A stretch of DNA of 64,000 nucleotides, taken from Kangiella aquimarina DSM 16071 (lineage in GTDB: Bacteria > Pseudomonadota > Gammaproteobacteria > Enterobacterales > Kangiellaceae). The notes under the pieces are model-generated. The model had not been told where the DNA came from, searched no databases, and saw only the letters and a program-made list of their open reading frames with translations. The stretch is from contig NZ_KB893650.1 of the NCBI RefSeq assembly GCF_000374105.1, positions 1,521,145-1,585,144 of the forward strand, in the 5' to 3' direction. The translations under genes were made by a program, and so were the position numbers. Positions within the stretch are counted from its first letter, which is position 1, and the number at the start of each line of letters is the position of its first letter. This document shows positions 48,805-61,780 of the stretch, one piece after another.

Positions 48805-49071
48805 GTGAATTCAGAGATAATACAGAACTTACGCTCAGACATTGATGAGCTGGATAAGCAATTAATGGCACTGGTAGAAAAGCGAGCACAGCTCGTTCTC
48901 AGGCTCAGCGACGAAAAAAAACAGCTGGGTATGACTGAGTATGACCCTACAAGAGAGCAGGCCATCATTGAGCGTTTATATCAGGAATTTAAACCGACAT
49001 TCAGTCAGTCCGAGATCGAGGCTATATTTAAACCAATCTTTAAGGCCAGCTTGAGAATACAGCAGGCATAA
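48805..49071 (+). CDS. Chorismate mutase, AroQ class
   Basis: 88-residue stand-alone helical chorismate mutase that converts chorismate to prephenate for Phe/Tyr. Helix 1 NLRSDIDELDKQLMALVEKR has the active-site Arg and Lys/Arg pattern of the AroQ fold. Start GTG at 48805, AGGGTG upstream. Divergent from cmoA, whose enzyme uses prephenate. Confidence 0.87.
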   Translation: MNSEIIQNLRSDIDELDKQLMALVEKRAQLVLRLSDEKKQLGMTEYDPTREQAIIERLYQEFKPTFSQSEIEAIFKPIFKASLRIQQA

Positions 49072-49096
49072 AAAAACCCGCCTAAAATAGGCGGGC
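49070..49096 (-). terminator. Intrinsic terminator on the minus strand after aroQ
   Basis: CCCGCC (49077-49082) and GGCGGG (49090-49095) with seven A at 49070-49076, which is a U tract only for minus-strand RNA. The plus-strand product lacks a U tract. Yet no annotated minus-strand gene ends here: it would end the candidate small RNA. Confidence 0.82.
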
Positions 49097-49157
49097 AAAA
49101 GTTGCGTCTCAAAATGAGAAGGAGGTATTTTGAGATGCGGGATTTAGCACTAAGGGG
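49070..49157 (-). ncRNA. Candidate small RNA with anti-Shine-Dalgarno loop
   Basis: An approximately 88-nt minus-strand transcript is predicted. A plausible promoter lies at 49164-49193 (TTGTTA, 18 bp, TAGTAT). A perfect 9-bp hairpin, TCTCAAAAT/ATTTTGAGA (49107-49115 and 49127-49135), carries the 11-nt loop ACCTCCTTCTC. The intrinsic terminator at 49070-49096 completes the RNA. The loop contains ACCUCCUU, the same as the anti-SD tail of 16S rRNA, so it could pair with ribosome binding sites of mRNAs. The structure is seen; transcription and function are inferred. Confidence 0.5.
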
Positions 49158-49164
49158 TAGTTAA
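49135..49164 (+). other. Alternative reading: 9-codon ORF with perfect ribosome site
   Basis: On the plus strand the same hairpin loop shows AAGGAGG (49119-49125) nine bases before an ATG that opens a tiny frame of nine codons, MRDLALRGS. It could be a leader peptide, but no regulated gene follows closely (the S9 peptidase ATG is 205 bp on). It is the complementary face of the small-RNA loop. Confidence 0.2.
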
Positions 49165-49368
49165 TACTAATTCCACAGCCTCCACTTTAACAAAGCCGCC
49201 AGTTCTGGCAATTTTCTAAATGTAACAAAGCATTTCTGCATTAAATATCTTTACAAAGCTCATAAATATCTAGGCTGGCACTGGGGTTAGATTTTTTATA
49301 TGCTGTCCGCTTTGTTATTTTTGAACACTGTATTTTTTGGGTTAATTGATACGTTCGTAAGGGGACCA

Positions 49369-51414
49369 ATGAAAAAGTTATTGATTTCTTTGAGCTTGCT
49401 GCTGGCCTCATCTGGCTTGATGGCAAAGAATGATGGCATGACTTTGGAAGATATTTCAAAGTTACAGTCTGTTACTTCTTTAGATGTTTCACCAAACGGT
49501 GAGTACATCGCATTTACACAGTCCAAACCACGCACGCCATATGTTGACGAAGATGGCACAGCCTGGAACCAATTGTTTGTTATGAAAAAGGGTGGCGAAG
49601 CCCGCCCATTCATCACTGGCGAAGTCAGCATCGGTGGTGTCCAGTGGGCACATGATAGCTCGGCTATTTATTACACTTCTAAGCGTGGTGAAGATAAGCA
49701 TAACTCGCTGTACAAAATCCCAGTTGATGGTGGTGAGTCACAGCAGGTTTTAAGTTTTGAAACCGATATTGGTGGTTACACTATTAGTCATGATGGTTCT
49801 AAGCTTGTATTTCTTGCCAAAGAGGAAGACCCAAAGCATTTAGAGAAGCTTGATAAAAAAGGTTTCAAAGCCAAGGTTTATGAAGAAGATATTAAAATGA
49901 CTCATGCCTGGTTATATGAGTTAGCTTCAGAAGAAGATTCTCAAAAACCAGCAAAACTGGACATTAAAGACCACGTGTTATCAGTGGCTTTTTCGCCTGT
50001 GAATGATGAGTTAATGGTTCAAACTTCTCCAACATCCTTGATTGATGACATCTACATGAAGAAGTCGCTGAAGGTTGTTGATTTGGATGGCGATATCGTG
50101 GCCAGCTTCAAGACTGAAGGCAAGCAGGGTAAAGCAGTTTGGTCAACTGATGGCAAACAGATTGCTTTCCTGGGTGCGAATGACTACAACGATCCCACAG
50201 ATGGTGCTTTATATATCGCTAACGTAGTGGATGAAACTATCTATAAGCGCGTTGCCAATTTGACTAGCCACGTTATGGATATCGCCTGGCAAGGTGATGA
50301 TGTGATTTATATTGAGCACCAGGGCGTTGAAAGCCGAATTGTTAGAGCTGCTATCAAGCGTAAGATTGCTGATCGTCCAGTGGTTGATTATGGTAATGGT
50401 ATTCACAGTCGTTTGAGCGTATCTAACACAGGTGATATTTATGCCATGACTGATACCGCTTCTCATCCTCGTGAAGTTTATGCTTTTAATGCAGACGGTT
50501 TCGAGCGTCTAACAAACAGCAACCCTTGGTTAGCTGATAAAGCGCTTGGCAAGCAGGTGGCTTATGAGTATGAAGCGCGTGATGGCCTGAAAATCCAAGG
50601 TGTTCTGGTATATCCATTGAACTACAAGAAAGGCAAGCGCTACCCAATGATTGCCTTCATTCATGGTGGTCCAGAAGCGCATGAATCCAATGGCTGGAAA
50701 ACTAACTATGGTGATCCTGCACAATATGCGTCAGCTCAAGGCTACTTCTCTTTCTTCCCAAATTATCGAGGCAGTACGGGCCGCGGTGACGAGTTTGCAC
50801 GCCTTGATCAACATGGCTATGCCGATCCTGAGTTCACTGACATTCTTGACGGTAAACTGGCGCTAGTAAAAGACGGCATGGTTGATACCGATAAAGTGGG
50901 TATTACCGGTGGTTCTTATGGTGGTTATGCGACTGCATGGTCATCTACTGCATTGTCTGAGCACTATGCAGCTGGCGTGATGTTCGTTGGTATTTCAAAT
51001 CAGCTTTCTAAATTCGGTACTACAGATATTCCTAATGAAATGCAGGCCGTTCATGCTCGTGCATGGCCTTGGGATGATTATCAGTGGATGCTGGAAACCA
51101 GTCCGATTTATCATGCACCCAAAGGTAAAACGCCTTTGTTGATTATGCATGGTGAGGCTGATACTCGTGTTCATCCATCGCAGTCAATGGAAATGTATCG
51201 TTACCTCAAGACGCTTGGTAATGCGCCTGTACGTTTGGTTCTTTATCCTGGCGAAGGTCATGGTAATCGTAAAGCTGCAGCGCAACTTGATTACTCCATG
51301 CGCCTCATGCGCTGGATGGATCATTACCTGAAAGGTAAGGGTGGTAATCCTCCTCCTTATGATCTTAAGCATGAAGAGAAGCTGGAAAACGGTTCAGATA
51401 GCTCTGATAGTTAA
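49369..51414 (+). CDS. Exported S9 peptidase (acylaminoacyl-peptidase type)
   Basis: 681 residues from the ATG at 49369, with AAGGGGA upstream; an earlier in-frame ATG at 49300 has no such site. Signal peptide about 1-19. A PD40-like beta-propeller (about 30-400) is followed by the catalytic domain with Ser516 in GGSYGGYA, Asp598 in GEADTRVHP and His631 in GEGHGNR. Cleaves dipeptides or acyl-amino acids from peptide ends. Differs from the first S9 peptidase, which is S9A. Confidence 0.92.
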   Translation: MKKLLISLSLLLASSGLMAKNDGMTLEDISKLQSVTSLDVSPNGEYIAFTQSKPRTPYVDEDGTAWNQLFVMKKGGEARPFITGEVSIGGVQWAHDSSAIYYTSKRGEDKHNSLYKIPVDGGESQQVLSFETDIGGYTISHDGSKLVFLAKEEDPKHLEKLDKKGFKAKVYEEDIKMTHAWLYELASEEDSQKPAKLDIKDHVLSVAFSPVNDELMVQTSPTSLIDDIYMKKSLKVVDLDGDIVASFKTEGKQGKAVWSTDGKQIAFLGANDYNDPTDGALYIANVVDETIYKRVANLTSHVMDIAWQGDDVIYIEHQGVESRIVRAAIKRKIADRPVVDYGNGIHSRLSVSNTGDIYAMTDTASHPREVYAFNADGFERLTNSNPWLADKALGKQVAYEYEARDGLKIQGVLVYPLNYKKGKRYPMIAFIHGGPEAHESNGWKTNYGDPAQYASAQGYFSFFPNYRGSTGRGDEFARLDQHGYADPEFTDILDGKLALVKDGMVDTDKVGITGGSYGGYATAWSSTALSEHYAAGVMFVGISNQLSKFGTTDIPNEMQAVHARAWPWDDYQWMLETSPIYHAPKGKTPLLIMHGEADTRVHPSQSMEMYRYLKTLGNAPVRLVLYPGEGHGNRKAAAQLDYSMRLMRWMDHYLKGKGGNPPPYDLKHEEKLENGSDSSDS

Positions 51415-51477: not shown

Positions 51478-51775
51478 CATTCCCGCGAAGGCGGGAATCC
51501 ATATTCTTTTCTGTCATTCCTATATTTTTTCTTTCGCTACTAAGCGAGTTACTTTTCTTGCGTGGTCAAGAAAAGTAACCAAAAGAAGACCACCCGATAT
51601 TGAGGCCACGCTTCGCGTGACTTCCTGCGTCACTTCCAAAATACTTAACGCACCAGAATTTACATCACATCCCTGTGCTGAAAATTCTTATCAAAATCAT
51701 CCACGATTTTGATTGCTATATTTTGTACGTGTCTTAGCTCAATATAAGGGGATTATTGGTGCTACTCATCTAACT
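51478..51775 (+). repeat. Dispersed repeat element, copy A
   Basis: Starts with an 8-bp hairpin ATTCCCGC-GAAG-GCGGGAAT (51479-51498), then a TTTTCTT...AAGAAAAG dyad near 51553-51576, CACCCG, ATTGAGG and TTAACGCACC, ending TTGGTGCTAC...CTAACTTAG. The same blocks occur in the same order, inverted, at 61432-61715. The stretch contains no credible gene; the open frame across it only translates the repeat (for example VIPAKAGIH). This explains the gap between the peptidase and lipase genes. Confidence 0.82.
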
Positions 51776-61267: not shown

Positions 61268-61780
61268 TTTAGAGGTACAAAAGTATAAGGTCGTCACTCC
61301 CGCGAAGGCGGGAGTCTATTTTTTTAAAGAACTTATATGGATTCCCGCACCCGAGGGCATTTCCTTCGGTCACCTTCGCGGGCGACCGCAGGAAGTGCCC
61401 GTGGTGAATGACAAGACTCTAAGTTAGGTAGCGTTCTGACATTTATACTTTCAATATGACTCTTTAATTATCAGGCTAGCACCAATAACCCCTTTTGATT
61501 GAGCTGAGTAGTAGCCAAGACATAGCAATTCAAAACAGGACGTTTTGAATAGTAAAATTCGGGCCACGGATGGAACGTATTTTACGGTGCGTTAAATGGC
61601 TTGGCGGAGACGAAGGGAGTTGAGCATAGCGAAACCTCAATCACGGGGTGTCCTTTCTTTTCGTCTCTTTTCTTTAGACAAGTAAAGAAAAGGGACTCGC
61701 CGAGGGGCGAAAAATGTTTTCCATAAAATAATACAAAGTCACTGGATACCGCGGTCTAGCCTCGGTATGACATTTAACAC
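61268..61780. repeat. Dispersed repeat element, copy B with palindromes
   Basis: Over 500 bp without a gene. Reads as the inverted counterpart of copy A from about 61432 to 61715 (TTAACGCACC, ATTGAGG, TTTTCTT...AAAGAAAAG). Outside the shared core are palindromes: ACTCCCGC-GAAG-GCGGGAGT (61296-61315), the same hairpin as in copy A but with a paired T-to-C and A-to-G change, and a larger one around 61337-61415 with GGGCA...TGCCC arms. Confidence 0.78.

Follow-up and report, generated by a model that had tools for sequence, protein, structure and literature searches.

A genus-wide candidate small RNA with an anti-Shine-Dalgarno-like hairpin loop in Kangiella and a likely metalloprotease target in one clade

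The minus strand of a 64,000-nucleotide stretch of the Kangiella aquimarina DSM 16071 genome (the window) appears to encode a small RNA (sRNA) of ~107 nt (49070..49177; ~49176-49070), which carries an anti-Shine-Dalgarno (anti-SD)-like hairpin and is fixed in the genus as sampled. We consider it likely that this is a trans-acting, OmpR-type-regulated RNA that would block translation, probably with the assistance of Hfq, which the genome encodes. In the mechanism we propose, a sigma-70-type promoter of its own would drive transcription of the RNA, whose loop core CUCCUUCUC and hairpin 3′ arm, AUUUUGAG, would pair with the Shine-Dalgarno (SD) region of a target mRNA, blocking 30S binding and so repressing its translation. 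For one Kangiella clade, the likely repressed target would be the message of a secreted M4 metalloprotease.

The predicted promoter consists of a -35 hexamer TTGCCA (49206..49211; ATAGCC-like in many relatives according to the promoter scan and alignment) and a -10 hexamer TAAAGT (49184..49189; five of its six columns invariant in 20 genomes), separated by a spacer of 16 nt. Downstream lie a 5′ hairpin with the C-rich loop CUACCCC (49139..49176), the anti-SD-like hairpin (49107..49135), and an intrinsic terminator (49070..49096) comprising a 9-bp stem (49096-49076) and a seven-U tract that runs to 49070. In the anti-SD-like hairpin, the 9-bp stem UCUCAAAAU/AUUUUGAGA (arms at 49135-49127 and 49115-49107) presents the 11-nt loop ACCUCCUUCUC (ACCTCCTTCTC) at 49126-49116. 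The 5′ end of the RNA was placed from the -10 box and its 3′ end from the U tract. A sequence-only reading of this DNA had put the promoter, the 9-bp stem, the 11-nt loop and the terminator at these positions, with the U tract on the minus strand; re-reading, scanning and folding returned the same positions, and the terminator scan the same strand.

All promoter-like and terminator-like sites found here lie on the minus strand, and the scans alone are weak (two promoter-like sites vs. 0.9 in shuffles, and two terminator-like sites vs. 0.3). For the inferred RNA of 107 nt, the predicted folding energy is −37.1 kcal/mol, compared with −15.96 kcal/mol (sd 2.7) for 200 dinucleotide shuffles (z = −7.83), and it is this fold energy together with the conservation of the hairpin, rather than the scans, that excludes chance. 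We regard a minus-strand sRNA gene with its own sigma-70-like promoter, two hairpins and a strong terminator as the probable interpretation of this architecture.

The hairpin was recovered in all 20 Kangiella genomes searched, using a DNA search, a hairpin search and a covariance model, with 0–3 differences from the window's 27-mer. The sequence-only reading had proposed an sRNA gene on the minus strand, its loop resembling an anti-SD, and had suggested a covariance search in related genomes; the search placed the locus in 20/20 genomes, and the proposal was borne out by the conservation of stem, loop and terminator in relatives, which keep a terminator, but one of different sequence. Loss of the hairpin beside retained neighbours, which that reading would have counted against itself, was the reverse of what we observed, as genomes lacking the adjacent chorismate mutase gene still carry the hairpin.

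This gene, encoding a type II chorismate mutase (CM_2; 48805..49071, plus strand), is the convergent neighbour and lies outside the sRNA, while the divergent neighbour, an S9 prolyl oligopeptidase-family gene (49369..51414, plus strand), stands beside the sRNA in the loci of 19/19 relatives. CM_2 was not found in six of the 20 genomes, all of them distant Kangiella (tblastn without a match in 6/6, with the interval read directly in 4/6), and these six still keep the sRNA. In G006, tblastn also gave no CM_2 match, yet the gene was present on reading the locus. The free-standing CM_2 gene is fast-diverging (38–97% identity where matched), while the genes on either side are retained. The sRNA terminator directly adjoins the stop codon of CM_2, as would be expected of a terminator or cis-antisense element of this convergent gene; we rejected that interpretation as extremely improbable because the sRNA is conserved in the six genomes without CM_2 at the locus, and the terminator U tract lies on the minus strand.

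No convincing homologue was found outside Kangiella in 20 sister-genus genomes (family search over 40 genomes and covariance model); the sole match from another genus in the family search (G168) was weak, with a terminator without the hairpin and no anti-SD loop. A sample of the order comprising 148 genomes, searched with stricter filters that lose weak matches, gave ten matches, nine from Kangiella and one from G050, the latter without an anti-SD loop. A narrow exact hairpin pattern applied to a wider contig collection returned 21 stretches, 13 of them from Kangiella or Kangiellaceae; the remaining eight were judged from their flanks to be chance occurrences and were discarded as homologues. 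From these searches, the sRNA appears to be confined to Kangiella or, elsewhere, to have diverged beyond their reach.

In the 20-genome alignment, the 29 nt of the anti-SD-like hairpin show a mean column conservation of 97%, with 23 of 29 columns invariant. The -10 box reaches 98%, a repeat that precedes the promoter 82%, the terminator 71% and the 5′ portion of the RNA 60%. The sequence-only reading had pointed to the identity of the loop with ACCUCCUU, presumably the 3′ tail (anti-SD) of 16S rRNA, but in the alignment this identity is not the conserved feature. The exact 8-mer is present in 12/20 genomes; loop position 2 is C in 12/20 and U or A in the other eight, so conservation does not extend to the exact 16S tail, and the invariant core is CUCCUUCUC, which is kept together with both stem arms. 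The frozen stem of this hairpin yields no covariation.

The 5′ hairpin diverges with compensatory changes in the own-species clade. With its structure read by eye from the sequences, 95.2% of cells are paired (11 sequences, 10 distinct), and 22 cells are changed on both sides, compared with 8.4 in shuffles (0/500 reach 22) and at most five when the structure is slid. Two of the five covariation measures were not clear of the shuffles; the pairs with two-sided change number seven (29/500 shuffles as high), and the further pair types 17 (246/500). The six distant genomes without the chorismate mutase gene have a different 5′ hairpin.

Read on the plus strand, the conserved site presents AAGGAGGT followed by an ATG 8 nt downstream, and in the window's species GAGAAGGAGGTATTTTGAGATG precedes a 9-codon ORF, so that the hairpin might instead hide the SD of a tiny ORF. 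We give this explanation next to no credence and rejected it because the ORF is not conserved among loci: it has nine codons (MRDLALRGS) or five (MRTHS, MRVYG), with sequences that differ among the translated loci, and its ATG is lacking from the six distant genomes as well as from two that carry a CGCTT variant. The confinement of promoter-like and terminator-like sites to the opposite strand also argues against it.

The best candidate target of the sRNA is a gene whose product, a secreted metalloprotease, has Peptidase_M4, M4_C, FTP and PepSY domains. Its leader contains a perfect complement of the sRNA in six genomes of one clade, 19 nt long in G014, 18 in G001, 16 in G008, 13 in G006, 12 in G005 and 10 in G018. 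These complements lie within 3–24 nt before the ATG, ending 3 or 6 nt before it, in the SD region, and their counterpart in the sRNA is the loop plus some or all of the hairpin's 3′ arm. The predicted net interaction energies were −19.0 for G001, −16.0 for G014, −15.6 for G008, −11.9 for G006, −11.8 for G005 and −4.3 for G018. In a sample of 211 genes of G006, chosen so as to include the M4 gene, this gene ranked first by duplex energy (z = −4.7) and second by net interaction energy, where a gene judged by eye to be LolA-like came ahead of it. The match in the M4 leader is just 7 nt in the own clade (G000, which is the window's genome, G003, G011 and G013), and G019 has 6 nt elsewhere in the leader; the predicted net energy in G000, the sole own-clade genome run, was 0.0. 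The M4 gene gave no match in 9/20 Kangiella genomes.

This pattern of complementarity points to the mRNA of the secreted M4 (thermolysin-like) metalloprotease as a likely target in one Kangiella clade. As the pairing extends over the loop and the 3′ arm for up to 19 nt, describing the RNA as an rRNA mimic understates its specificity, and the use of the 3′ arm by the longest complements offers a reason for the frozen stem. A stronger version, to which we give less than an even chance while holding it possible, is that the whole hairpin (anti-SD loop plus 3′ stem arm) would serve as the seed of a genus-wide, OmpR-type-controlled sRNA and would open into an 18–19-bp duplex over the ribosome binding site (RBS) of the metalloprotease.

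Genome-wide, there was little or no excess of complementary RBSs. The pattern GAGAAGGAG-ATG had 55 matches in 20 genomes, 12 of which were the sRNA locus itself; the 43 non-self matches compare with 29 controls, and six of the 43 precede the M4 gene. No excess was seen for AGAAGGAG-ATG in three genomes (13 vs. 13 controls) or for a 17-mer with up to three mismatches (157, self included, vs. 157 controls among the matches listed, which are those of genomes other than G001). In G000, the exact 8-nt complement before an ATG gave five matches vs. nine controls, among them catalase-peroxidase-like and ribosomal protein L2-like genes (named by eye), and no outstanding match by duplex and net energy was found among 252 genes of ~324 kb, called by a rough custom ORF caller. 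Two (L164 and L166) of the 17 near-complement sites inspected coincide with what could plausibly be the start of a long reading frame. On the preferred reading, the sRNA would presumably have targets in its own species too.

A generic CU-rich sRNA, acting on many weak targets through 6-nt CUCCUU-AAGGAG pairing and showing the long M4 match as an accident of lineage, would fit the absence of this match in the own clade and its range from 7 to 19 nt across species. NfeR1 and other anti-SD sRNAs are predicted to control large regulons (according to parts of PMC10746234), which is in line with the same idea. Nevertheless, a frozen 3′ stem arm is not what a generic anti-SD would produce, and the eight extra matched bases beside one of the 43 GAGAAGGAG-ATG matches have a chance of ~7e-4, an estimate that ignores base composition and shared ancestry; we consider this explanation rather unlikely. 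Another explanation is that the sRNA is real and its hairpin mainly sequesters something other than mRNA, as a protein-binding decoy or a sponge for another sRNA. The two stem arms vary no more than the loop does, a constraint beyond what a simple anti-SD loop would need, and this role would also suit the little or no excess of complementary RBSs. We judge it distinctly improbable, given that a decoy predicts none of the perfect 10–19 nt complements of one gene's RBS seen in six genomes. CsrA-type decoys require GGA motifs, whereas the loop here is CU-rich.

For the RNA as a trans-acting repressor, the reading we prefer, the region upstream of the promoter suggests a mode of control. A tandem 10-bp direct repeat (49218..49237, minus strand), reading TGTwACnnnnTGTTACAwTT in many relatives, lies just upstream of the -35 hexamer at near-constant spacing, and 10 of its 20 columns are invariant in the 20-genome alignment. 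The exact double TGTWACNNNNTGTTACAW motif occurs at the sRNA locus in 12/20 genomes; it is degenerate in the window's species, and the upstream half-site is degenerate there and in four close relatives. Across the 20 genomes, TGTWACNNNNTGTTACAW, a pattern written from the sRNA locus itself, gave 21 listed matches (two of which are one palindromic site), and its reversed control gave six. The sRNA locus accounts for 12 of the 21, in 12 genomes, and nine lie elsewhere vs. the six controls. In Salmonella Typhi, TGTWACAW is the motif associated with binding by OmpR (in the consulted text of PMC3586657), and the sRNA promoter is probably under the control of an OmpR-family response regulator. An OmpR-type double box was also observed 80 nt before the ATG of apparently one 173-aa protein in three genomes (L212 in G014, L214 in G006 and L215 in G005), and this gene may possibly be co-regulated with the sRNA.

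The sequence-only reading had recognised no family for the RNA, and the Rfam 15 families agree, as none reached its gathering cut-off across 49070-49193; the best score was 30.1 of 49.5 bits for RF02837 (anti-hemB). Membership of the anti-hemB, toxic sRNA, ar14, suhB, Hrs1 and Phe leader families was rejected, all scores being below the Rfam cut-offs. The RNA resembles anti-hemB in having a CCUCC loop followed by a terminator; RF02837 exceeded 49.5 bits in none of 41 genomes, and its sub-threshold matches also appeared in E. coli, Caulobacter and Deinobacterium controls. The suhB family (RF00519) scored 18.1 bits in the window against a cut-off of 41. Elsewhere in the window, two matches to the TwoAYGGAY RNA (RF01731, cut-off 43 bits) were observed, at 51622-51740 on the minus strand (47.4 bits) and 61507-61612 on the plus strand (49.8 bits).

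In kind, the candidate resembles the alpha-r14 or "cuckoo" sRNAs (NfeR1; RF02344, ar14), which are trans-acting, carry an anti-SD motif in hairpin loops and pair with translation initiation regions (as described in parts of PMC10746234, PMC7143759 and PMC3927594). The cuckoo RNAs have three hairpins with CCUCCUCCC and hypervariable stems, while the Kangiella sRNA has one CUCC hairpin with CUCCUUCUC, the loop ANCUCCUUCUC and a frozen, invariant stem; a single relative (L022) matched RF02344, at 27.2 bits against a cut-off of 58.8. The Burkholderia double-hairpin or toxic sRNAs (RF02278; ncS27, bdhR1) and Bordetella S17 are similarly short, with largely two hairpins and CU-rich unpaired stretches (in excerpts of PMC5688073 and PMC11722255). 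Against its cut-off of 50 bits, RF02278 scored 17.6 for the window and 27.4 for the relative L023, and, unlike that family, five of eight pairs of the first hairpin are broken in the aligned relative. AbcR and MmgR (alpha-r15, alpha-r8; suhB RF00519) also leave anti-SD motifs unpaired, and these are believed to base-pair with the RBS (portions of PMC7143759), but these RNAs were described from alphaproteobacteria. Like anti-SD-loop sRNAs, the Kangiella RNA has, by its sequence, a conserved unpaired C/U-rich motif complementary to AAGGAG, a promoter-like site and an intrinsic terminator. It would work like them while belonging to none by Rfam score, and its frozen stem is distinctive.

A second anti-SD-like hairpin with a terminator was observed in the same genome outside the window (G000:C1:1411570-1411642, minus strand; L043/L081, covariance model), and the DNA search found it in 6/20 Kangiella genomes. 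Its CUCCU-bearing loop (CCCUCCU in 5/6) lies within a GAUAUAAGAU stem. Measured in three copies, the hairpin follows the stop codon of a 178-aa gene by 46–62 nt (60 nt in G000), and a paralogue of this gene is nearby (L176). Two copies scanned gave no Rfam match to E 0.1. The hairpin may be a 3′UTR-derived sibling sRNA.

We found no sRNA described for Kangiella in the papers searched, and a comparative-genomics study of the genus (PMC6000758) uses the terms "sRNA", "small RNA" and "non-coding" nowhere in its main text. The consulted portions of that paper stress secreted peptidases for Kangiella, so an RBS-blocking sRNA acting on such an enzyme, a secreted protease, would offer a way into the control of this proteolysis. 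The locus represents a conserved candidate regulator for Kangiella with a testable target. If our reading is true, stem and loop would be equally constrained in this anti-SD sRNA, the opposite of the cuckoo pattern. Should the whole hairpin act as the seed, its frozen stem would be target-pairing sequence, beyond a scaffold, and an osmotic or envelope signal would act at the post-transcriptional level to switch secreted proteolysis in this marine, protein-eating genus.
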